A DNA stretch of 64,000 nucleotides, taken from NCBI RefSeq assembly GCF_020510445.1, contig NZ_JAHBAG010000001.1, positions 906,501-970,500 of the forward strand, in the 5' to 3' direction. Made by a program: the position numbers and the translations under genes. The stretch comes from Hydrogenophaga taeniospiralis. Lineage in GTDB: Bacteria > Pseudomonadota > Gammaproteobacteria > Burkholderiales > Burkholderiaceae_C. The notes under the pieces were generated by a model. That model was not told where the DNA came from. It did no database searches and saw nothing but the letters and a program-made list of their open reading frames with translations. Positions within the stretch are counted from its first letter, which is position 1. Every line of letters begins with the position of its first letter. This document shows positions 40,259 to 50,306 of this stretch, one piece after another.

Positions 40259-40269
40259 GCCCGCCCAAG

Positions 40270-40317
40270 CCGTTTCGAGCGGCTGTGACAGCCTGCTGAC
40301 ACAGCGTTGTCAGCAGG
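40270..40317 (+). terminator. Tandem hairpins after lrgB
   Basis: GCCGTTTCGAGCGGC, then CCTGCTGACA and TGTCAGCAGG with a 6-bp loop. No T-tract follows, so it is a weak or rho-assisted stop, or an mRNA 3' stabiliser. Confidence 0.45.
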
Positions 40318-40363
40318 GGGTCCACAGAATGCGGGGCTTGTTCAACAACCCCTGGAGATCGAT

Positions 40364-40741
40364 ATGGCACACGCCCTGAACTGGTTTGAAATTCCCGTCG
40401 CCGACATGGACCGCGCCCTGCGCTTTTACGCCTCGCTCACCGGCCGCGCGCTGCGCCGCGAGGCCTTCGGCGGGCCGGGCGAGGAGCTGGGTGTCTTTGA
40501 AGTGGCTGGCGAACAGGACGTCAAAGGCGCCCTGATGAAACACCCCGACTTCAAACCCGCCGCCAGCGGCACCCTGGTGTACCTGAACGCCGCACCCTCG
40601 CTCGACGCCTGGCTGGCGCGGGTGCCTGCCGCCGGCGGCAGCATCGCCCAGCCCAAGGTAACGCTGCCCGACGGCATGGGGGTCTTCGCCCACATCATCG
40701 ACAGCGAAGGCAACCGCGTCGGCCTGCACGCCATGGCCTGA
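40364..40741 (+). CDS. VOC family (glyoxalase-like) protein
   Basis: Protein of 125 residues with paired beta-alpha-beta units: NWFEIPVADMDRALRFYASL and GVFAHIIDSEGNRVGLHA. Substrate unknown. ATG at 40364 fits the family start (MAHALNWFEI). Confidence 0.88.
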   Translation: MAHALNWFEIPVADMDRALRFYASLTGRALRREAFGGPGEELGVFEVAGEQDVKGALMKHPDFKPAASGTLVYLNAAPSLDAWLARVPAAGGSIAQPKVTLPDGMGVFAHIIDSEGNRVGLHAMA

Positions 40742-40855
40742 AGTGAAACACCCCCCGCGCCGCTTCGCGTCCCCCCTCCAGCGGGGCGGCACTGGCCGTC
40801 TGGCAAAGCCAGCCCGGCGGTGCCCTGGGCTGTACCCTTTCAGGCGTCTGGGCGG
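40741..40855. repeat. Intergenic repeat family, copy C
   Basis: Full copy: CGCGCCGCTTCGCGTC, CCCCTCCAGCGGGG, then CTGGCAAAGCCAG and CCCGGCGGTGCCCTGGGCT. Confidence 0.65.
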
Positions 40856-40900
40856 CGCTTCGGCGCCATGAAAGTGGAGACCTCTGTGCATAGAAACTTC

Positions 40901-41383
40901 ATGAGTCCTCATGAGCACCAGCCCCGCCACTGGATCGCGGTCGCCAGCGCCGAACACGCGCTGCGCGGGCGCGACCACGCACCCGTGGGGTTCATGCAGG
41001 TCTGCCACGGAAAATGCGCGCCGCTCAAGCGGCTGCGCGCCGGCGATGTGGTGGCCTACTACGCACCCGCCCAGACCATGGACGGCAAAGACCGGCTGCA
41101 GAGTTTCGTGAGCATCGGTGTGGTGCAGGTGGGTGAGCCCTACGCGTTCGACATGGGCGGCGGCTTCGTGCCGCACCGCCGCGATGTGCGCTACGTGAGC
41201 GCGCAGCCCGCACCCATCGCGCCCTTGCTCGACGAATTCGAATTCGTCGAGGACCGGCAGCGCTGGGGCCACAAGTTCCGCTTCGGCCTGTTCGAGGTGT
41301 GTTCGGACGACATGCGGCGAATCGCTCGGGCCATGCGCGCGGATCTGGCGCCCCTGGGCCTGGCACAGGCTGAGAGGCTGTGA
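40901..41383 (+). CDS. EVE domain-containing protein
   Basis: PUA-like EVE protein of 160 residues. RHWIAVASAEHALRG at the N-terminus, then KCAPLKRLRAGDVVAYYAP and KFRFGLFEVCSDDMRRIA. EVE domains bind modified bases in DNA or RNA and often sit near defence genes, but none is obvious here. An in-frame ATG at 40868 is an alternative start. Confidence 0.85.
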   Translation: MSPHEHQPRHWIAVASAEHALRGRDHAPVGFMQVCHGKCAPLKRLRAGDVVAYYAPAQTMDGKDRLQSFVSIGVVQVGEPYAFDMGGGFVPHRRDVRYVSAQPAPIAPLLDEFEFVEDRQRWGHKFRFGLFEVCSDDMRRIARAMRADLAPLGLAQAERL

Positions 41384-41408
41384 GTCTTTCGCTCATGCCC
41401 GCTCACCA

Positions 41409-41495
41409 CCCCAAAACGCACCCGCTAGTCTCTGCAAACGCGCGCCATAGCCAGCTATGGCTGTGCTTTGCGCCTTGATCGGGCACGTTTTGGGG
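41409..41495. repeat. Nested 87-bp inverted repeat
   Basis: Outer arms CCCCAAAACG and CGTTTTGGGG; inner arms CCATAG and CTATGG around CCAG, with further pairing between CCCG and CGGG and between GCGC and GCGC. The whole element can fold as one long hairpin. Confidence 0.7.
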
Positions 41496-41552
41496 CGTTG
41501 CTCGGACACGCCCGAAAAACTCTCAGCCTCTGAGGCGACCGCACAATAAGCG

Positions 41553-41585
41553 CCACCCGCCACCCGCCACCCGCCACCCGCCACT
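41553..41585. repeat. Heptanucleotide tandem repeat (CCACCCG)4.7
   Basis: Four complete CCACCCG units and a partial fifth lie 13 bp before the next ATG, over the expected ribosome-site region. Confidence 0.9.
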
Positions 41586-41597
41586 CCCGGAGCCACC

Positions 41598-42203
41598 ATG
41601 CCCCCTGCCGTCCATCCCCTGCGTTGCCGTTGCGGCGCGCTGCAAGGCCACGTCGAACTGAACGGTCGCAGCAACCGCATGGTCTGCTATTGCCAGGACT
41701 GCCAGGCCTTTGCGCGGTTTCTGGGGCCGGCCGACCAGGTGCTCGACGCGCAAGGCGGTTCGGACGTGGTGCAGCTCGCGCCGCACCGCATCAAGATCAC
41801 CCAGGGCGCGGCGCAGCTGGCGGTGATGCGCCTGTCCGACCAGGGCATGTTGCGCTGGTACGCCGCCTGTTGCCGCACTCCCGTGGGCAACACTCTGACG
41901 AGCCGCAACATGCCCTTCACCGGCCTGCTGGCGCAGTGCCTGGACAGCGCGCCGCTGGAGCCCGCGTTCGGCCCGGTGCGGGCGAGCGCCAACACCGCGA
42001 GCGCGACCGGCGAGCCCAAGCCCCGGGCGTTCGGCATGGCCGGTGCGCTGTTGTGCATCCTGGGCCTGGTGTTGCACAGCCGCCTTTCGGGCCGCTACAA
42101 GGACACCCCGTTCTTCACCGCCTCCGGGGCGCCGGTGGCCGAGCCCAGGGTGCTCTCCGCCGAAGAGCGCGCGCGCCTGCGGCCCACGCCGGGCCAGGGC
42201 TGA
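41598..42203 (+). CDS. DUF6151/GFA-like zinc protein
   Basis: Protein of 201 residues. Cys residues in LRCRCGALQG, MVCYCQDCQAF and YAACCRTPVGN follow the pattern of GFA (glutathione-dependent formaldehyde-activating) domains. A hydrophobic stretch near 148-158 (ALLCILGLVLHS) may touch the membrane. Enzymatic role unknown. A short-unit tandem repeat precedes the start. Confidence 0.75.
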   Translation: MPPAVHPLRCRCGALQGHVELNGRSNRMVCYCQDCQAFARFLGPADQVLDAQGGSDVVQLAPHRIKITQGAAQLAVMRLSDQGMLRWYAACCRTPVGNTLTSRNMPFTGLLAQCLDSAPLEPAFGPVRASANTASATGEPKPRAFGMAGALLCILGLVLHSRLSGRYKDTPFFTASGAPVAEPRVLSAEERARLRPTPGQG

Positions 42204-42208
42204 GCACC

Positions 42209-42919
42209 ATGCGGCGTGCCGACCGCCTCTTTGCCCTGGTGCAGCTGATCCGCGGCCGGCGTCTGTCCACCGCCGCCTGGCTGGCGCAGCGGCTGGAGGT
42301 GTCGCCGCGCACGGTGTACCGCGACGTGGCCGACCTGCAGGTGCAGGGCGTGCCCATCGAGGGCGAGGCCGGCGTGGGCTACCGCTTCGGGCGCGGCTTC
42401 GATCTGCCGCCGCTCATGTTCACGGCCGACGAGGCCCGCGCGCTGGCCGTGGCCACGCGCATCGCCCAGCAGTGGCTGGACCCGGCGCTGGCGCTGGCCG
42501 CGGGCGACGCCATGTCGCGCGTGTTGTCGGTGCTGCCCGGGGTGGTGCGCACCGAGGTGGAGAAGATGCCGCTGCTGGTGCCGCCGCTGGGGCTCAAGCC
42601 CGCTGTGGCCCGGGCGCTGCAGGTGCTGCGCGAGGCCGCGCAGACGCGCACGGTGCTCGAACTCGACTACCTCGACGTGAACGGGCAGCCCAGCACCCGC
42701 GCCGTGCGGCCGCTGGGCTGTTTCTTCTGGGGCAAGGTGTGGACGCTGGCGGCCTGGTGCGAAACCCGGCAGGCCTTTCGCAGCTTCCGGGCCGACCGCA
42801 TCCAGGGCGTGCGCGCGCTGCCGCGCCGTTTTGTGGACGAGCCGGGCAAGACGCTGGCCGACCTGCTGCGGCAGGTGCAGGCCGAGAACGGGCGAGAGGG
42901 CAAGGGCTGCCCGCTGTAG
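42209..42919 (+). CDS. YafY-type HTH/WYL transcriptional regulator
   Basis: Regulator of 236 residues. The N-terminal HTH_11 domain has RRADRLFALVQLIRGRR and SPRTVYRDVADLQ. The C-terminal WYL domain (about 130-225) includes VLELDYLDVNGQPS and FWGKVWTLAAWCE. WYL domains sense nucleic-acid or nucleotide ligands. The start is 5 bp after the upstream stop, so it is cotranscribed with the GFA-like gene. Confidence 0.9.
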   Translation: MRRADRLFALVQLIRGRRLSTAAWLAQRLEVSPRTVYRDVADLQVQGVPIEGEAGVGYRFGRGFDLPPLMFTADEARALAVATRIAQQWLDPALALAAGDAMSRVLSVLPGVVRTEVEKMPLLVPPLGLKPAVARALQVLREAAQTRTVLELDYLDVNGQPSTRAVRPLGCFFWGKVWTLAAWCETRQAFRSFRADRIQGVRALPRRFVDEPGKTLADLLRQVQAENGREGKGCPL

Positions 42920-42929
42920 CGCAGCGGCT

Positions 42930-43286
42930 TCACAGCTGAAGCAGGCTGGGTTCGAGCTGCTGCACCATGCGGCGCGCGGTCCAGCGCAGCGCACCCGCGT
43001 GGCCGTGGTCGTCGCACACCAGCAGCAGCACGTGGGTGCCGTGCAGCTGGGTCTGGTACCAGACCTGGGTGTCGGACCAGATCAGCTGCTCGGCCCAGGG
43101 GCGCTTGCCCAGCACCGACAAGGCTTCTTTCCCCGCCAGCACCAGGCTGGCGGCGGTGGCCGCGGCCACGTCGCCGTGCAGCGCGCCCGACGACGCCATG
43201 AGCAGGCCGTCGGCGGTGGCCAGCACCGCGCCGGCGTTGCCGGGGCACTCGGTGATCTGGTCGAGGATGTCCTGGATATCGGGCAT
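42930..43286 (-). CDS. Roadblock/LC7-domain protein (cluster gene 8)
   Basis: Protein of 118 residues with the Roadblock/LC7 fold: DQITECPGNAGAVLATADGL, then ASLVLAGKEALSVLG, then VLLLVCDDHGHAGALRW. Roadblock proteins are partners or GTPase-activating factors of small MglA-like GTPases. It starts 1 bp after the preceding gene and closes the eight-gene cluster. Confidence 0.82.
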   Translation of the reverse strand: MPDIQDILDQITECPGNAGAVLATADGLLMASSGALHGDVAAATAASLVLAGKEALSVLGKRPWAEQLIWSDTQVWYQTQLHGTHVLLLVCDDHGHAGALRWTARRMVQQLEPSLLQL

Positions 43287-43287
43287 G

Positions 43288-43845
43288 TCAGTCGGCCAGC
43301 AGCGTGTGCAGGCTTCGCACCAGGCCCACGAGGGCCTCGTGGGCGACCAGCGCCGAAGAGGTGATGTGCAACCGGCAGGGCCGGCGTCCGATATAGAGCG
43401 GCATGGCCCGGACCATGGCATGCCGAAAGTGCGCAAACCCGGCGGCCAAGCCCTGGGCGTGCTCGCGCGCCACGCCATGGCTCGCCAGGCACAGGCCATC
43501 GGGGTCGGCCAGCACGGCCGCGCCGGCTGTGTCGCCGCAGAGCCGTTGCAGCTGCTGGTGGATGTCCGCGGCCGGGTGGCCCGTTGCGTGGGGCACCGCT
43601 GGTGCGTCGACGGACACGTGGATGCTGCCGAGCCGATGCAGGCCGAACAACGAGCGCGCCACCTCGCTGCGCGACAGGCCGCTGCTCTGGCTCAGCCGCC
43701 CCACGTCCACCACCGTGGTGTCGTGAGACTGCCGCAACAGGGCCCGGAACAGGCGCTGATCCGGCCGCCGCGCATCGGGCGCCAGCGTCATCCACTCGGT
43801 GATGCCCTGGGGCCGGACGTGCAGGTGGCGGGCGGGCGGGTTCAT
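43288..43845 (-). CDS. Winged-helix plus Roadblock-like protein (cluster gene 7)
   Basis: Protein of 185 residues. Residues about 28-80 look like a winged helix (VVDVGRLSQSSGLSRSEVAR, FGLHRLGSIHV). The C-terminal part (about 95-185) resembles a Roadblock fold, with AAVLADPDGLCLASHGVA. This pairing recalls the DUF742 winged-helix and Roadblock parts of conservons, here apparently fused. Whether it binds DNA is unknown. Confidence 0.6.
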   Translation of the reverse strand: MNPPARHLHVRPQGITEWMTLAPDARRPDQRLFRALLRQSHDTTVVDVGRLSQSSGLSRSEVARSLFGLHRLGSIHVSVDAPAVPHATGHPAADIHQQLQRLCGDTAGAAVLADPDGLCLASHGVAREHAQGLAAGFAHFRHAMVRAMPLYIGRRPCRLHITSSALVAHEALVGLVRSLHTLLAD

Positions 43846-43884
43846 CGGTGTCGCCGGGCGCTGAGGGGCACGGGTGAAAGCGGT

Positions 43885-44994
43885 TCAGCCGCGCTCGCAG
43901 CTCGGGCAGCCGACCTGCCCGAGCCGGACGTGGAAACGCACGGTGCTGCCCGCGGCGATCTCGGCGCCGCAGTGGTCGCAGACGGTGCCCTCGTCCAGGG
44001 TGACGCTGTCGTAGCGCTCGGTTTCGACGACTTGCCCGCCCATGCGCCGGGGCCAGGGCGCGTGCTTGACGATGTCGGCGCGGAAGTGTTCCTCGTAGCG
44101 GGCCCAGCCGGCCATCTGCTCCGGCGTCAGGCCCAGCTCGCGTTGCGCCTGGGCCATCAGGCGCTGGCGGTGCTCGAACAGCGTGTCTGGGATGACCATC
44201 CAGTGGTGGGCATTTTTCGGGCGTTCGCCGATGTAGACCTTGTCGCCTGTCATGCACTGCATGAGAAACGCATACTGCTTGCCAATGACCCGCTCCATCG
44301 AGACCCGCTCGAAGAAGGGCTGGAGCAGGGGGTCGGCGTAGACCTTCCGGTAGAAGGCCTCCAGCACCCGGCGCACCAGCCGGCCGTGGTCCAGCAGATG
44401 CCACAGCGCCAGATCGGGGGCGGGCAGCGGGGCTTCGCCTTCGGGTTCCACCGGGAACGGCCCGCGCAGCTGGAAATCGGCGCCGAACAGCGCGTCGTCG
44501 GAAAAAGCGGCCTGCGGCAGCACGTCGTGCGCCACCTCGGCCTGGATCAGGCCTTGCGCATCGTCCCGCCCGCTCAGGCGGACGTGGATTGGTGCCGGGA
44601 ACGGGCCGTCGAACACCTGGGCCGATTGACCCGCGGTGAAGGCCAGTTCCGTGGCGGTCTCGAACCAGAGGATGGACGAACCGTCCGCCCCATGTTCACG
44701 CCGCACCAGCATGCACGGCGTCAGCATGTCCGCGGGCGACTTCGGCGCCAGGCTCAGGGGGCCGGCGGGCTTGCACTGGCAGGCCAGCACATAGCCCGCC
44801 GACTGGAGGTGTGGGGGCAGTGAACGGGCGGCCTCGGCCGGCGCCGCCCCGTCCACCACCTTGACCAGGCAGCGGCGGCAGACGCCGCTCTTGCACGAGA
44901 AGTCGATCGCGACGCCGGTGCGCACGAACGCGTCCAGCAGGCTCTCGTTGTCGCGGCAGCGAAGAGGCTGCCCCTGGTACTGGATCGGGTGCAT
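43885..44994 (-). CDS. Ferredoxin / FNR-barrel / globin / zinc-ribbon fusion (cluster gene 6)
   Basis: Protein of 369 residues with four modules. Residues 1-85 are a plant-type 2Fe-2S ferredoxin (FSCKSGVCRRC and a later ACQC). Residues about 90-185 look like half a ferredoxin-NADP reductase, the flavin barrel ending in LRGPFPVE, without an NAD domain. Residues about 200-315 are a truncated globin (VLEAFYRKVYADPLLQPFF, NAHHWMVIPDTLFEHR, the likely proximal-His region). Residues about 335-369 carry two CxxC pairs (VCDHCGAE, GCPSCERG). A redox or gas sensor is inferred. Confidence 0.8.
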   Translation of the reverse strand: MHPIQYQGQPLRCRDNESLLDAFVRTGVAIDFSCKSGVCRRCLVKVVDGAAPAEAARSLPPHLQSAGYVLACQCKPAGPLSLAPKSPADMLTPCMLVRREHGADGSSILWFETATELAFTAGQSAQVFDGPFPAPIHVRLSGRDDAQGLIQAEVAHDVLPQAAFSDDALFGADFQLRGPFPVEPEGEAPLPAPDLALWHLLDHGRLVRRVLEAFYRKVYADPLLQPFFERVSMERVIGKQYAFLMQCMTGDKVYIGERPKNAHHWMVIPDTLFEHRQRLMAQAQRELGLTPEQMAGWARYEEHFRADIVKHAPWPRRMGGQVVETERYDSVTLDEGTVCDHCGAEIAAGSTVRFHVRLGQVGCPSCERG

Positions 44995-45001
44995 GGCGGG
45001 C

Positions 45002-45397
45002 TCAGGTCTGCGTCCAGAGGGAGGCCAGATCGGTCGCCACCCGGCGCGTCTCCAGAATCAGGCGCCCGAGGTTGGCCCGGGGCGTGGCCGCCACGGCCAG
45101 CACCGCCGAGTCGCCCCCGTGGGTCAGCAGCAGCGGGCCTTGCTGGCCGTCCAGAATGATCTGGCGCAGATTGCCGCGGTCCACTTCCTTGCTGGCCCGG
45201 GCCGCCAGCGCCAGCAGCGACGCGCACATGGCGCCGAAGCGGTCCGGGTCGGTGCCCGTGGACAGCAACGAGGCGACGGTGAAGCCGTCGCGGGTCACCA
45301 CCGCCGAAGCCTCCACCTCGGCGAGGTTCGTGTGGAGACCGCGCAGGACGCCCCGGGCCCGACTGGCCAGGATTTCATGGGTCAACGGGGTGTTCAT
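45002..45397 (-). CDS. Roadblock/LC7-domain protein (cluster gene 5)
   Basis: Protein of 131 residues with the typical helix-strand pattern: VEASAVVTRDGFTVASLLS, FGAMCASLLALAARASKEV, GPLLLTHGGDSAVLAVAATP. It is the clearest MglB-like Roadblock protein of the cluster, with strand VLAVAATP and final helix LGRLILETRRV. It starts 17 bp after the upstream gene and likely regulates the cluster GTPase. Confidence 0.85.
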   Translation of the reverse strand: MNTPLTHEILASRARGVLRGLHTNLAEVEASAVVTRDGFTVASLLSTGTDPDRFGAMCASLLALAARASKEVDRGNLRQIILDGQQGPLLLTHGGDSAVLAVAATPRANLGRLILETRRVATDLASLWTQT

Positions 45398-45414
45398 GGG
45401 CCGTCCTTACCCGA

Positions 45415-45822
45415 TCACAGAGCGGCTTCGACGGCCGGCATGGCCGAGCGCGCCTTGGTCAGCACCATGCCCAGGTTGGCGCCCTTGCGGCAGACGAAGC
45501 AGACCACCTGTTGCTGGCGCTTGCCGCGCAGGAACACGTGGATCAGGTTCTCGCTGTTGACGATGATTTCCTGGAAGTAGTGGTGGTCCACGCTCTCGGG
45601 CAGGCCGCGCGACTTCTTGAACACCTTCTCGATGGCCACGACGTTGGGGCCCTGGAAGAGATCGGCCGTGGCCGCGGCGAGCATGTCGAACACCTCGGAG
45701 GGGTGGGAGTCCACGGTCTTGATGCTCAGCACCATGCCGGAGGCGAGGTCCACCATACCGGCGGCCAGGCACTCGGGGATGCCGGTCATGGCGCGCTGCA
45801 GGGTGTCGTCAAGTTTGTTCAT
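45415..45822 (-). CDS. Roadblock-like protein (cluster gene 4)
   Basis: Protein of 135 residues. PECLAAGMVDLASGMVLSIK, VFDMLAAATADLFQGPNVV and QQQVVCFVCRKGANLGMVL fit a divergent Roadblock/LC7 fold. Its start overlaps the end of the ABC-phosphatase gene by 14 bp, so the two are translationally coupled. GAAAGGAAATT precedes the start and supports 45822. Confidence 0.7.
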   Translation of the reverse strand: MNKLDDTLQRAMTGIPECLAAGMVDLASGMVLSIKTVDSHPSEVFDMLAAATADLFQGPNVVAIEKVFKKSRGLPESVDHHYFQEIIVNSENLIHVFLRGKRQQQVVCFVCRKGANLGMVLTKARSAMPAVEAAL

Positions 45823-47209
45823 GAGGGAATTTCCTTTCAGGGGAATCGTTTTTGTGGAATCGACCATTGCCCAAGGTCGTGAGGGGGGGATGCGGTGGCC
45901 GACCGAGAAAGTCGGCGAAGCCAGACAGGAAGGCCGTCTGCGAGGGGGCCTGGATCATGGTGGCGTCCAGGCGGCGGACGCGGTCGATGCTCTCCAGCGC
46001 GGTGCGCTGGCCATTGCCCTGCCACAGCCAGTAGGCGGCCAGCAGGGTGCCTGTGCGGCCCAGGCCTGCCTTGCAGTGCAGGGCCACCACCTCGCCCGCC
46101 GCCAGCCAGCGGTCGATGTCGTCGCACAGGGCGGCCGCGCGGGTCAGGGTGGGGGCTTGCATGTCGGGGATGGGCAGGCTGGCGCACTGGATGCCGAAGC
46201 GCGTGGCCAGCGCTTCTGGAAACGCCTGTTCGGTCAGGCTCACCAGCCGGGTCACGCCGACATGGCGCAGCGCGTCCAGATCGTCGTCGGTCTCGCGGAT
46301 CAGGCCCGGCCATGGCGTGCCCGCCAGTTGCCCGGGCAGCAGCCAGGCAAACCCGCGGGGGCCGCTGGCGGCGCTGATCAGTGTGGGAGGGCTGGGGGCC
46401 TGGGCCGGCACTGCGGGCTCATCCTGGGGGGCGTCCGAGCCCTGCGCAAGGGGAAATTCCGGGCAGGAGCCGGTGCGGATGAACTGGCGGGTGGCCTCGC
46501 TCTGCGGGCTGTCGAAAAAGCGCTCGGTGGGAGCGCTTTCCTGGGTTTCGCCGCTCGCGATGAGCACCACATGCCGGGCCAGTCGGCGGGTCAGCCGCAG
46601 GTGGTGCAGCACCAGCAGGATGGCCTGCTGGCGTGCAATGTGTTCGATGAAGGCCGCCAGCCCGTCGGCATCGTCTTCGCTCAGGCCGGTGGTGGGCTCG
46701 TCGAGCATCAGCAGGGCCGGCCGGCCCAGGAACTCGCGCAGGATGGCGATCACCCGCTGCTGCACCGGGCTCAGGTCGAGCACCGAGGCGTGCAGGCGGT
46801 CCATGACCCAGGCCTGCTGCACCTCCCCGGTGATCTGTCGCAGGCGGTCGAGCTGCTGCGCGCGCGTCAGCCGGGAGCGATCGGGCAGGCCGCTCAGCAG
46901 GTTGTCCAGCACGGTGGACACCAACAGCTGGGCCTTTTGAACCACCAGCGCGGGCCGGTGGTCGGGGGTCCGTTCACGGCCCAGGTACAGCGTGGCGCCC
47001 CAGACCCGCAGGCTGGGGTTGTGGTCGTTGTAGCCGGCCAGCGTGCGCAGCAGCGACGACTTGCCCGTGCCCGCCGGCCCCAGCAGCACCGTGCAGCCGT
47101 GGGCGGGCACGTCCAGGTCGATGCTGCGCAAGACCACGCGGTCGTTGTAGGCCAAGCCGAAGCCGCGAAGACGCAGGCAGGGTGCCGTGGCGGGCACATC
47201 CTCAACCAT
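45809..47209 (-). CDS. ABC ATPase fused to dual-specificity phosphatase (cluster gene 3)
   Basis: Protein of 466 residues. Residues 1-240 are a PstB-like ABC ATPase: Walker A GPAGTGKSS, Walker B ALLMLDEPTTGLSED, but a degraded signature (LSPVQQR instead of LSGGQ). After a Pro-rich linker, residues about 300-440 form a cysteine phosphatase with the P-loop HCKAGLGRTGT, matching HCx5R, and a likely general-acid Asp in LPIPDMQAP. No permease is nearby. It overlaps the GTPase gene by 8 bp. The combination is not one I know. Confidence 0.82.
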   Translation of the reverse strand: MVEDVPATAPCLRLRGFGLAYNDRVVLRSIDLDVPAHGCTVLLGPAGTGKSSLLRTLAGYNDHNPSLRVWGATLYLGRERTPDHRPALVVQKAQLLVSTVLDNLLSGLPDRSRLTRAQQLDRLRQITGEVQQAWVMDRLHASVLDLSPVQQRVIAILREFLGRPALLMLDEPTTGLSEDDADGLAAFIEHIARQQAILLVLHHLRLTRRLARHVVLIASGETQESAPTERFFDSPQSEATRQFIRTGSCPEFPLAQGSDAPQDEPAVPAQAPSPPTLISAASGPRGFAWLLPGQLAGTPWPGLIRETDDDLDALRHVGVTRLVSLTEQAFPEALATRFGIQCASLPIPDMQAPTLTRAAALCDDIDRWLAAGEVVALHCKAGLGRTGTLLAAYWLWQGNGQRTALESIDRVRRLDATMIQAPSQTAFLSGFADFLGRPPHPPLTTLGNGRFHKNDSPERKFPHEQT

Positions 47210-47759
47210 AGCGGTGCACCATCTCCAGCATGGCCGCGACGGTGAGCACCAGCGTCTGAAGGTCCTTTTTCTCGCGCCCATCGACCGGAAGCACCGGCAC
47301 CACGCAGGCGGGGAAGCGGTCATCGCGCTCGCGCAAGCGCCTGCGGTAGATGTTCAGCGGCGCCTCGGGGTGCAGGTCGACGTGCGTGATGCCCACGGCC
47401 AGGGGCAGCTTGCGGCCCTCCAGGCGCTCGCCCAGGCGGTCCATGAAATGGTCGAGATCGTCCAGCCGGCTCGCGCGGCTGTGGTCCAGCAGCAGGATGA
47501 CGGCCCGGGCCTGTTGCAGCAGGATGTCCCACATGAAGTCGAAGCGGTCCTGGCCAGGGGCCCCGATCAGCCGCACCTTGTCGCCGGACCCCAGCTCCAG
47601 CACCCCCGCGTCCATGCAGACGGTGGTGTTCTGCTTGTAGGCGGCGGTCTCGTCGGTGGCACGTTCGTCCGTGCCGAGCACGTCGATGTCCGACAGGGTC
47701 TGCACGGCCATGGTCTTGCCGGCGCCCACCGGGCCCATGAACAGAACGGAGCACTCCAT
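47202..47759 (-). CDS. MglA/CvnD-type small GTPase (cluster gene 2)
   Basis: GTPase of 185 residues. G1 is GPVGAGKT, G2 region KQNTTVCMDAG, G3 GAPGQDRFDFMWD and G4 THVD (in place of NKxD). TTVCMDAG followed by GQDRFDFMWD is the pattern of conservon D GTPases and MglA relatives. Roadblock proteins in the same operon are its expected partners. It overlaps the next gene by 8 bp and lies 2 bp after the previous one. Confidence 0.87.
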   Translation of the reverse strand: MECSVLFMGPVGAGKTMAVQTLSDIDVLGTDERATDETAAYKQNTTVCMDAGVLELGSGDKVRLIGAPGQDRFDFMWDILLQQARAVILLLDHSRASRLDDLDHFMDRLGERLEGRKLPLAVGITHVDLHPEAPLNIYRRRLRERDDRFPACVVPVLPVDGREKKDLQTLVLTVAAMLEMVHRYG

Positions 47760-47761
47760 GT

Positions 47762-48226
47762 CTAGTGCGCTCCGGTGGGGATCAGCTTTTTCCGGAAACG
47801 GTCCAGAAAACCCGTCACCGAGCTGGGGACCTCCTTGGGCGAGCGGGCCTCGGGCGTCGCCGCGGTGGCCGGGGCCTCTTCCTTCTTTTCCGGGCTGGCA
47901 ACCGGGGCGCCATCGCCCAGGTTGCCATGGAGGTACAGCATGTCCACGATGTGCTGGGTGCGCTCGCGCGGGATGTCCACCAGGCGGTGGATCAGGGGGG
48001 CACCCGTGGGCCGGACCGCCAGCAGGGCGCAGATGCGGATCACGTCAGGGACCATGTGGTCCGAGACATGGCGCAGGTCCGGCCAGGAACGCAGGCGTAA
48101 CACCGCAAACTGGGGGCCCAGCTGGGAGGTGGCGTTGGTGGATAAAGGGCGGCTGTGTCGCATGGAAAGCGGGCGCGGTTGTGTTGTCGATGGGGTTGCA
48201 GCTGAAATCGCGACACGGGTACCCAT
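47762..48226 (-). CDS. Winged-helix-like protein (cluster gene 1)
   Basis: Protein of up to 154 residues. The middle part (about 55-100: DVIRICALLAVRPTGAPLIH, then ERTQHIVDMLYLHGNL) looks like a winged helix. After an acidic linker the C-terminus forms an amphipathic helix (VTGFLDRFRKKLIP). A DUF742-like role in the cluster is inferred. The start is uncertain: 48226 lies in a palindrome, and an ATG at 48163 would give 133 residues. Confidence 0.6.
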   Translation of the reverse strand: MGTRVAISAATPSTTQPRPLSMRHSRPLSTNATSQLGPQFAVLRLRSWPDLRHVSDHMVPDVIRICALLAVRPTGAPLIHRLVDIPRERTQHIVDMLYLHGNLGDGAPVASPEKKEEAPATAATPEARSPKEVPSSVTGFLDRFRKKLIPTGAH

Positions 48227-48233
48227 GGGTACC
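48218..48233. promoter_or_regulatory. 16-bp palindrome GGTACCCATGGGTACC
   Basis: Perfect palindrome containing the possible start codon of the first cluster gene. It may be an operator or a coincidence of a KpnI-type sequence. Confidence 0.35.
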
Positions 48234-48647
48234 GGCGGTCTGGTGGGACCCCCTCAATGCCTTTGACCGGCTCCCCCGGGCTCTTCTGGGGGGACGGAAC
48301 GGCGGTCAAGGAGGGCCCGAGAAAAACCCAGAACAAACGGTTGCGCGGGGGGAAAATATCATGGACATTCGCCGATTTGTAGGGAAATTTAATTATTGGT
48401 AATAATTTGTTGTTGTTCCGCCAGCAATCCCCAGTGTTTTAATAAACCTTTCATACATGGAGGGCCCGTGGTGTGCTTGGCGCGCAGGCAGGCGCGCTCC
48501 AATGCGGTTCGCGCAAGGGGTTTTGGAGATTGAAAAGGGGGGGCGGTGGCGCGAGCGCACACCCGCACCGGGCGGCCGCCCGGCGGCTTCTTCAGAGACC
48601 GGGAGTGGGGGAGCCGCCCGTCTGGCCGCGCGCAGCGCGGCGGGGGG
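48227..48647. other. Non-coding promoter region of the GTPase cluster
   Basis: About 420 bp without a gene. A block at about 48380-48445 is strikingly AT-rich compared with the rest of the window (AATTTAATTATTGGTAATAA), a likely promoter or DNA-bending site. CCTTTGACCG and CGGTCAAGG form an imperfect dyad around 48260-48312. Confidence 0.5.
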
Positions 48648-49130
48648 TCAGAGCAGCGCCGCCTCGATGTCCTTGGTCAGCTTCTCTGGCGCGTCCTGCG
48701 GCGCGTAGCGCTTGAGCACGCGCCCGTCCTTGCCCACCAGGAACTTGGTGAAGTTCCACTTGATGGCCTTGCTGCCCAGCAGGCCGGGGGCTTCCGCGCT
48801 GAGCCACTGGTAGAGCGGATGGGCCTCGGGGCCGTTGACGTCGATTTTGCTCATCATGGGAAAGGTGACGCCGAAATTGCGCTGGCAGAAGGTGGCGATC
48901 TCCTCGTCGCTGCCCGGGTCCTGCTGGCCGAACTGGTTGCACGGAAACCCCAGCACCACCAGGCCGCGCGGGCCGTAGGCCTGGTGCAGCTGCTCCAGGC
49001 CGCCGAACTGCGGCGTGAAGCCGCAGGCGCTGGCGGTGTTGACGATCAGCATGGGCTGGCCCCTGAACTGTTGCAGCGAGACCGGCTGGCCGTCGATGGA
49101 GCGGGCTTCAAAGTCGTAGATGCTGGACAT
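48648..49130 (-). CDS. Glutathione peroxidase (Cys type)
   Basis: Thiol peroxidase of 160 residues. The catalytic tetrad is Cys36 in NTASACGFT, Gln66 in GFPCNQFG, and Trp125/Asn126 in KWNFTKF. It has Cys in place of selenocysteine and a second Cys in IATFCQRNF, so it probably uses thioredoxin. It reduces hydroperoxides. Divergent from the pseudo-receiver gene. Confidence 0.93.
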   Translation of the reverse strand: MSSIYDFEARSIDGQPVSLQQFRGQPMLIVNTASACGFTPQFGGLEQLHQAYGPRGLVVLGFPCNQFGQQDPGSDEEIATFCQRNFGVTFPMMSKIDVNGPEAHPLYQWLSAEAPGLLGSKAIKWNFTKFLVGKDGRVLKRYAPQDAPEKLTKDIEAALL

Positions 49131-49304: not shown

Positions 49305-50306
49305 ATGGCCAACAGTTACACAGTGGCTCTGGTGGGGTTCACGGACAGCGAGTCCACGACCTTCGATGCGTTTTTCCGGCTCGCGGCGCGGCGACCACCC
49401 GAGTACCGGGTGCAGGACGAGGTGGCGGACGCGCAGCTGCTGATCGTCAACGCCGACAACACCCAGGCCCTGCACCTGGTGCGTCAGGCCAAACTGCCGG
49501 GCCAGGTGCTGCTGGTGGGGCACAGCGACGGCGGCACCGGCTGGCCGCTGCAGCGCAAGCCGATCAAGCTGGTGTCGGTGCTGGGTCTGCTCGACGCCCT
49601 GGTCGGCGTGCGCATGGGCGATGCCGCGGCCCGGGCGCCGGTGGCCGCCCGCCGGTTCGACGCCACCGGGTTCCCTCCGACGCGGCTCATGGTGCGCCGG
49701 CCCGTGGCGCCGACCGCCGCGGAGTCGGCGCGTTTTGCCCGGCCCGGCGTGATGGGGCTGAGCGACTTTGGCGGCCTGGAAGAGCTGCCCCAGGCGCCTG
49801 CGGCGCCCCGTGTGCCCGGTTCGCGTGCGCCGGGCGCTTCGCGCCCGCCGAAATCCACCCACGGCAAGAGCCCGGCGGCGGCGGTGCCCGAGTTGCCGCG
49901 TGGCGACCTGCTGCTGGTGGCCGAGAGCCTGGTCGAGGGCCGCATCCTGCACAAGCGTTTCAAGAAATACGGGCTCACGATCGACTGGTCGCGCGAAGCG
50001 CCCCAGGCGCTGGCCATGATGCAGGCCAACGCCTACCGGGCGGTGGTGATCGACCGTCTCAACGGCCAGCCCGACGCCTACCAGATCTGCCGTGGCGCCA
50101 AGCAGCGCAAGCTGGCCAATGGGCAGAGCCCGGTGGTGATCATGTTCGCGCCCGCGGCGGGCAGCATGGACCGCATCAAGGCGGGCCTGGCCGGCAGCGA
50201 CGCCTACCTGCCCCGTTCAGTGAACGAAGTCGAGCTCTACAAGGTGCTGGCCCGGCACCGGCTGGTGAGCCAGGACGACTTCCGGCCGACGAACATCGGG
50301 TTCTGA
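49305..50306 (+). CDS. Double pseudo-receiver protein
   Basis: Protein of 333 residues with an N-terminal receiver-like region (about 1-110), a disordered Pro/Ala linker and a C-terminal receiver fold (about 205-325). In the latter the acidic pair is replaced (LLLVAESLV), an Asp remains in AVVIDRLNG, the Thr/Ser position reads MFAPAAG and the Lys position reads YLPRS. Phosphorylation is doubtful. Protein-protein signalling is inferred. It is not linked to a kinase here. Confidence 0.7.
   Translation: MANSYTVALVGFTDSESTTFDAFFRLAARRPPEYRVQDEVADAQLLIVNADNTQALHLVRQAKLPGQVLLVGHSDGGTGWPLQRKPIKLVSVLGLLDALVGVRMGDAAARAPVAARRFDATGFPPTRLMVRRPVAPTAAESARFARPGVMGLSDFGGLEELPQAPAAPRVPGSRAPGASRPPKSTHGKSPAAAVPELPRGDLLLVAESLVEGRILHKRFKKYGLTIDWSREAPQALAMMQANAYRAVVIDRLNGQPDAYQICRGAKQRKLANGQSPVVIMFAPAAGSMDRIKAGLAGSDAYLPRSVNEVELYKVLARHRLVSQDDFRPTNIGF

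Follow-up and report, generated by a model that had tools for sequence, protein, structure and literature searches.

A cluster of eight minus-strand genes was identified in the 5.28 Mb genome of Hydrogenophaga taeniospiralis, running from 48163 (or 48226, if an alternative start is used) down to 42930 of the window, the whole 64,000-nucleotide stretch of DNA that was analysed. The genes, referred to here as g1 to g8, encode an MglA-type GTPase together with Roadblock proteins, an ATP-binding cassette (ABC) ATPase fused to a phosphatase, and a ferredoxin-globin. We confirm this composition, which is conserved and, within the reach of our searches, has not been described; it surrounds a core of a known kind. 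We tentatively describe the operon as a derived, expanded version of the Group 3 MglA type of beta- and gamma-proteobacteria, an explanation which, taken jointly with the mechanism proposed below, falls somewhat short of an even chance. Within it, the phosphatase fusion (g3) and a Roadblock-fold protein (g4) form a pair that persists without the GTPase and is largely co-inherited.

The affiliation with Group 3 is based primarily on g2 (47202..47759), a small GTPase matching PF03029 (2e-9) and the single match to its query in its own genome. As far as the available portion of Wuichet and Sogaard-Andersen (2014; PMC4316618) goes, Group 3 MglA proteins have a Thr in G2, GTPGQ in G3, a G4 motif without Lys and a DAR-like G5. 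In the alignment, g2 displays GPVGAGKT, TT (G2), GAPGQ (G3), THVD (G4) and DGR (G5; DAR in relatives), and thus agrees with this pattern when G[T/A]PGQ is allowed in G3. In the GTPase tree, from which matches below 140 residues and duplicates were dropped and which was built without published Group 3 sequences, g2 lies inside a beta/gamma-proteobacterial clade that comprises 69 of 104 tips with support 0.975 and excludes the actinobacterial loci. Of the 31 tips in the subclade that contains the window's g2 (support 0.84), 24 are loci with the ABC/phosphatase, and such loci occur at two further spots in the tree. The family match, motifs and tree together bear out the earlier note on this DNA, which had been made from the sequence alone and had called g2 an MglA/CvnD-type GTPase.

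The same portion of PMC4316618 describes Group 3 loci in beta/gamma-proteobacteria as combining MglA with a receiver-like/winged-helix protein and with one or two MglB. The gene g1 (47762..48163, alternative start 48226) lies directly upstream of g2 in related loci and encodes a short protein of 133 aa without a Pfam match. In an alignment of 39 rows, in which some loci are represented twice, this protein pairs with the C-terminal portion of the longer g1 proteins and corresponds to the winged-helix-like C-terminal domain of the Group 3 partner only. A long g1 with the receiver-like part is present in L156, and likewise, judged by length and position, in L193 and L194. Since the receiver-like part is absent from the window's g1, the operon is considered a derived relative of Group 3 rather than a canonical member. 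The MglB-like complement is provided by g5 and g8, and probably by the C-terminal half of g7, which is more than the one or two genes described, with g4 in addition.

A pseudo-receiver plus receiver protein is encoded near the operon (49305-50306, plus strand) and was considered as the missing half of g1. This protein and its orthologues are the best non-g1 match to a model of the g1 N-terminus (E 3e-7 in the window, 2.7e-8 in L062), and ordinary receivers match the same model from 1e-7 on. The candidate was rejected as not operon-specific because it is matched at E<=1e-40 in 57 of 67 Hydrogenophaga genomes, and at 1e-3 in 65 of them (in some through the receiver domain alone), whereas a near g3 (E<=1e-60) is present in 3 of 67. 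It is a near-core gene of the genus, possibly of related function.

The g3 protein (45809..47209) combines an ABC ATPase with a phosphatase of the dual-specificity/protein tyrosine phosphatase (DSP/PTP) kind (PF00005 1.2e-14, PF22785 1.2e-20, PF22784 5.5e-16). Across 46 aligned rows, the Walker A, Walker B, Q-loop and H-loop motifs are kept in the family, and the DSP/PTP active-site motif HCx5R (HCxxGxGRTG; HCKAGLGRTG in the window) is kept in 45. The LSGGQ signature of ABC transporter ATPases is lost in 45 of the 46 rows, the nearest form being YSAGQ, and no permease or transmembrane-partner domain was matched in a Pfam scan of the eight operon proteins. Given these kept and lost motifs, g3 appears to be an intact phosphatase linked to a soluble nucleotide-binding domain, and not a transporter component. 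The single exception, a row with LSGGE, is probably an outlier without the phosphatase motif; L148, first mapped as a g3 beside g6, is on account of that row most likely another ABC protein and was not used. An anti-phage defence system was also considered and rejected: g3 matches mad3, mad8, AriA and TRIP13 in the ATPase region only, and the other seven genes have no such match.

The usual neighbour of g3 is g4 (45415..45822), a Pfam-negative protein with a single match in its own genome, whose predicted model displays an alpha-beta-beta-alpha-beta-beta-beta-alpha fold like that of MglB. Sequence-profile comparison, that of g4 with g5 included, gave weak support for the Roadblock fold (18.4%; 1.1%), and a search of the g4 sequence against solved structures gave no convincing relative. 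On the strength of its model, g4 is a predicted Roadblock/LC7-fold protein, of a second kind within the operon. Two further Roadblock genes and a probable third were observed. The MglB-like g5 (45002..45397; Robl_LC7 1.3e-16) carries the Asp-Gly pair in 25 of 26 aligned sequences, the remaining one having a gap, and g8 (42930..43286; Robl_LC7 1.1e-5, above the cut-off) matches the g5 profile at 99.7%. In turn, g7 (43288..43845) matches the g8 profile at 94.6% and is a probable fusion of a winged-helix-like N-terminal half and an MglB-like Roadblock C-terminal half, as suggested by an AF2 model and moderate VIA matches. The three small Roadblock proteins (g4, g5, g8) and the likely fusion (g7) proposed in the earlier note are thus supported.

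The remaining gene, g6 (43885..44994), encodes a 2Fe-2S ferredoxin, a degenerate remnant of a flavin adenine dinucleotide (FAD) domain, a bacterial, truncated-type globin and zinc-ribbon-like C-terminal cysteines. Fer2 (2.3e-12) and Bac_globin (5.2e-9) are the sole Pfam families above the cut-off, with no match to an FAD or nicotinamide adenine dinucleotide (NAD) domain. The protein keeps CxxxxCxxC...C, the globin motifs and the CxxC...CxxC tail, the FAD motif RxYS is lost, and it appears from its sequence to be a ferredoxin-globin with a decayed reductase part. Its relative in L087 is a complete ferredoxin-FAD-NAD-globin by Pfam, and those in L156 and L194 look the same by sequence; we take this domain arrangement to resemble that of flavohaemoglobins that detoxify nitric oxide (NO). 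In L146 and L147 the relatives are ferredoxin-globins, and in L193 a globin with the tail. The globin is retained in every form seen whole, and the FAD and NAD domains come and go. Furthermore, g6 adjoins g4-g3 in L146 and L147, with no GTPase in the fetched stretch, which we count in favour of the proposed explanation. A small CxxCxxCC protein was also observed between g4 and a full-length ferredoxin-reductase-globin in L171 (901-1218, minus strand; Pfam match) and L156 (10179-10550, plus strand; likeness by eye).

The co-occurrence of these genes was examined in a contig scan with alignment of near relatives, giving 65 loci: 30 proteobacterial and 35 outside Proteobacteria (L090, L092-L125), the latter all without a g4 match. 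The genes g1, g2, g3 and g4 and a Roadblock gene occur together in 25 of the 30 proteobacterial loci, 24 of them in the same order and one (L075) rearranged; the set is absent from L065, L067, L068, L081 and L088. The first five genes follow this same order in Hydrogenophaga, Acidovorax, Polaromonas, Curvibacter, Caldimonas and Lysobacter. All eight genes were found in 9 of the 30 loci, in addition to the window. The idea that the eight genes belong together, raised in the earlier note, therefore stands for the first five genes, while g6 to g8 are patchy.

An even sample of 299 genomes of the family was also searched. The GTPase profile matched 53 places in 38 genomes and g4 matched 27 places in 23 genomes. 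All 27 g4 places were examined: 23 lie beside g3 and 4 beside the GTPase, those without g3 being L128, L132, L134 and L144. Trees were constructed for g3 (51 tips) and g4 (68 tips) after removal of repeat loci (L168, L169, L171, L172), identical sequences and short fragments, and loci were scored as GTPase-less when no g2 lay within 5 kb in the fetched stretch (the L162 genome has g2 on another contig). Among the GTPase-less g3 tips, 21 of 23 fall in one clade with support 1.0 (exceptions L067 and L131). Similarly, a single clade with support 0.907 unites 23 of the 26 GTPase-less g4 tips of the near branch (exceptions L131, L132 and L144); its members L128 and L134 have no g3 alongside. These matching single clades indicate that g3 and g4 were largely inherited together. 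More distant g3-g4 pairs are also present within the genus, in L126 (the second pair of the same-genus relative G432), L146 and L147. Two arrangements were observed in addition. In L131 (5562-8593, plus strand), g3-g4 is followed by two Roadblock-type genes, with no nearby GTPase gene and no GTPase match listed for the genome. In L134 (6532-7593, plus strand), one open frame comprises a PAS-like domain (by eye), a short phosphatase-like stretch and g4; this is either a genuine fusion or a PAS gene with a decayed g3 beside it.

A second branch of g4 was found in a class sample of 274 genomes, where g4 occurs at 19 places in 18 genomes. Five of these are near places (two shared with the family sample), all beside g3. 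The other 14, in 13 genomes, belong to a distant branch with relatives including Marinobacter, Beggiatoa and Acidihalobacter, some of which are labelled 'Roadblock/LAMTOR2 domain-containing' in UniRef. With about 1.5 kb covered on each side, genes for a GTPase and a Roadblock protein adjoin 10 of these 14 places. In 9, the neighbour of g4 is a metallophosphatase, always of the same family (Pfam Metallophos shown for L174, L177 and L183), and a PP2C phosphatase is encoded nearby on the same strand in 2, both in one genome. The presence of unrelated phosphatases beside one Roadblock family is a hint that a phosphatase belongs to the function of the g4 family. Related Pfam-negative proteins take the metallophosphatase's place in L182 (1925-3352, minus strand) and L184 (32-1351, plus strand), and L178 has neither a phosphatase nor a protein of this type beside g4. 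In L183 (1964-3373, minus strand) and eight relatives, the front half of the metallophosphatase contains an invariant LD...SNF...Y.DD, which presumably recalls a kinase loop; a kinase-phosphatase fusion beside gamma-proteobacterial MglA operons is possible.

The proposed mechanism starts at g6, whose heme and Fe-S cluster would bind O2 or NO or undergo a change of redox state; by way of the Roadblock proteins, this would alter the cycle of the GTPase. The state of the GTPase would then be relayed through g4 to g3, whose nucleotide-binding domain would gate the PTP active site, so that g3 could dephosphorylate a protein or small molecule; g1 and g7 may carry a second output to DNA. Elsewhere, the autonomous g3-g4 pair would represent the same phosphatase module under other inputs. 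We infer the direction from g6 over the GTPase to g4 and g3 from gene neighbourhood and domains, and the roles of the heme/Fe-S protein as input and the phosphatase as output are plausible. A wider version of this idea, which seems doubtful though possible, is a beta/gamma-proteobacterial G-protein-to-phosphatase pathway. In it, g4 would act as an adaptor coupling an MglA-type GTPase to interchangeable phosphatases (the ABC/PTP fusion, a metallophosphatase with a kinase-like front half, PP2C), with the reductase-derived heme/Fe-S protein of the Hydrogenophaga branch as gas or redox input.

Several observations weigh against this explanation. The scan of 30 loci started from near relatives and contains near-duplicates (L063/L064, L066/L089, L078-L080), and the g3 of L074 is broken up into several reading frames. 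Only 14 of the 25 core loci have g6 and 12 have g7, and in the even family sample just 4 of the 53 GTPase places lie beside g4. The Asp-Gly pair, placed near the GTPase in the available portion of PMC4316618, is missing from g4. In L062, g6 has a Pro in place of the first His of AHHWM, a His in nearly all others. Furthermore, the metallophosphatase and g4 are convergent, on opposite strands, in 8 of the 9 places (same strand in L185), so that the two are not co-transcribed there and the hint of a shared function is weakened. Finally, g7 has the highest ratio of nonsynonymous to synonymous substitution rates (dN/dS) in the comparisons with L062 (0.47) and L063 (0.70).

Control of motility or polarity is a possible but rather unlikely alternative. 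Like other Mgl systems, this one would position or regulate type IV pili; g6 would adjust movement to oxygen, and the phosphatase would have a regulator of pili or chemosensing as its target. The available part of PMC11112851 ties mutations in an orphan mglB of Snodgrassella, a bacterium with a Group 3 mgl locus, to type-IV-pilus-dependent spreading and colonisation. The genome studied here contains four PilT-family matches above the cut-off, and its only two Robl_LC7 matches, g5 and g8, sit in the operon. However, no pilus or chemosensory family was matched among the eight proteins in the Pfam scan (systematic annotation did not extend to the genes flanking the relatives' loci), near g3 orthologues are confined to 3 of the 67 Hydrogenophaga genomes, and most g3-g4 pairs of the family sample do not adjoin an MglA gene.

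Detoxification of gas or nitrosative stress is less probable still. Here g6 would chiefly be an NO dioxygenase or an oxygen-scavenging globin fed by its own ferredoxin and regulated by the G-protein genes. The full-length relatives, which join ferredoxin, FAD and NAD domains with a globin, fit this idea, whereas the lost RxYS motif, the lack of an FAD or NAD domain match in the window's g6 and its absence from 11 of the 25 core loci do not.

The genomic site raises the prospect, which we consider improbable, of a loose accessory island in which genes of differing function gathered at a variable insertion site and only parts cooperate. The stretch around the operon, 40260..48650, is missing or partly replaced in the four examined genus relatives without a near g3. 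Between the window's flanks (approximately 38.0-40.26 and 48.65-51.7 kb), the distance is about 220 bp in L166, 1.7 kb in L165 and 1.2 kb in L167; the site is filled by other genes in L164, L165 and L167, and L164 retains two of the non-operon genes. The patchy distribution of g6 to g8 points the same way. On the other side stand the order of the first five genes shared across six genera and the dN/dS values, calculated by the Nei-Gojobori method without a significance test, which are below 1 for all eight genes: 0.05-0.29 against L061, 0.10-0.47 against L062 and 0.07-0.70 against L063 (high dS), with g4 lowest in all three. The intergenic spacings from g1 to g8 are +2, -8, -14, +17, +7, +39 and +1 bp, and promoter and terminator scans gave nothing exceeding chance.

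A variant of the actinobacterial Cvn module minus its kinase, the 'conservon-like' label of the earlier note, is very improbable and already disfavoured: g2 shares 29-38% identity with the GTPases of actinobacterial loci and an MglB-like Roadblock is present, but g2 belongs to a separate beta/gamma clade, its motifs and winged-helix partner fit Group 3, and the Pfam scan matched neither a histidine kinase (in agreement with the earlier note) nor DUF742 (CvnC) among the eight proteins.

Under the preferred explanation, a derived Group 3 operon, the gene set suggests a bacterial circuit that has received little study, in which a phosphatase would respond to gas or redox signals. To our knowledge, the effectors on which bacterial Ras-like GTPases act are little known except in Myxococcus and the actinobacteria. 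The Roadblock-phosphatase pair, and the unrelated phosphatases beside the same Roadblock family, would if confirmed give a concrete downstream step, and the heme/Fe-S partner would make the input controllable by means of gas. Since g3 and g4 are also paired at sites with no GTPase gene nearby, the NTPases under Roadblock control may not be limited to small GTPases. No ABC-phosphatase/Roadblock pair, and no phosphatase or ferredoxin-globin genes in mgl operons, were found in the literature covered, which was mainly open-access and did not include the supplementary neighbourhood tables of PMC4316618. The novelty claimed for the composition thus holds for the phosphatase and globin parts; the GTPase, Roadblock and winged-helix part has a precedent in the available portion of that paper.

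Compared with known systems, the operon shares with the actinobacterial conservon (CvnA-D) a GTPase and an MglB-like Roadblock protein in one operon, and differs in lacking a histidine kinase and a DUF742 protein and in its separate GTPase clade. With the MglA/MglB/MglC/RomR polarity module of Myxococcus it has in common a GTPase, a Roadblock protein of the GTPase-activating type and an extra Roadblock paralogue; in place of RomR it contains a phosphatase and a globin, and its G2 and G3 motifs are unlike those of Group 1 as given in the available portion of PMC4316618. Flavohaemoglobin-type and ferredoxin-reductase-globin enzymes resemble g6 in joining a globin to redox domains, full-length g6 relatives having ferredoxin, FAD and NAD domains, whereas the window's g6 is without the FAD motif and the NAD domain. 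HGbRL of Methylacidiphilum, for which the available part of PMC4476040 proposes a role as globin-coupled sensor, also links a globin with a Roadblock domain and is a precedent in favour of the proposed explanation; it is one fusion protein without a phosphatase. The closest likeness is to Group 3 MglA systems, with which the operon shares the beta/gamma MglA motifs, the upstream winged-helix partner and the MglB-like Roadblock genes. Relative to these systems, g1 is without the receiver-like part, and the window adds the ABC/phosphatase, the Pfam-invisible Roadblock protein g4, the ferredoxin-globin and the probable winged-helix/Roadblock fusion.

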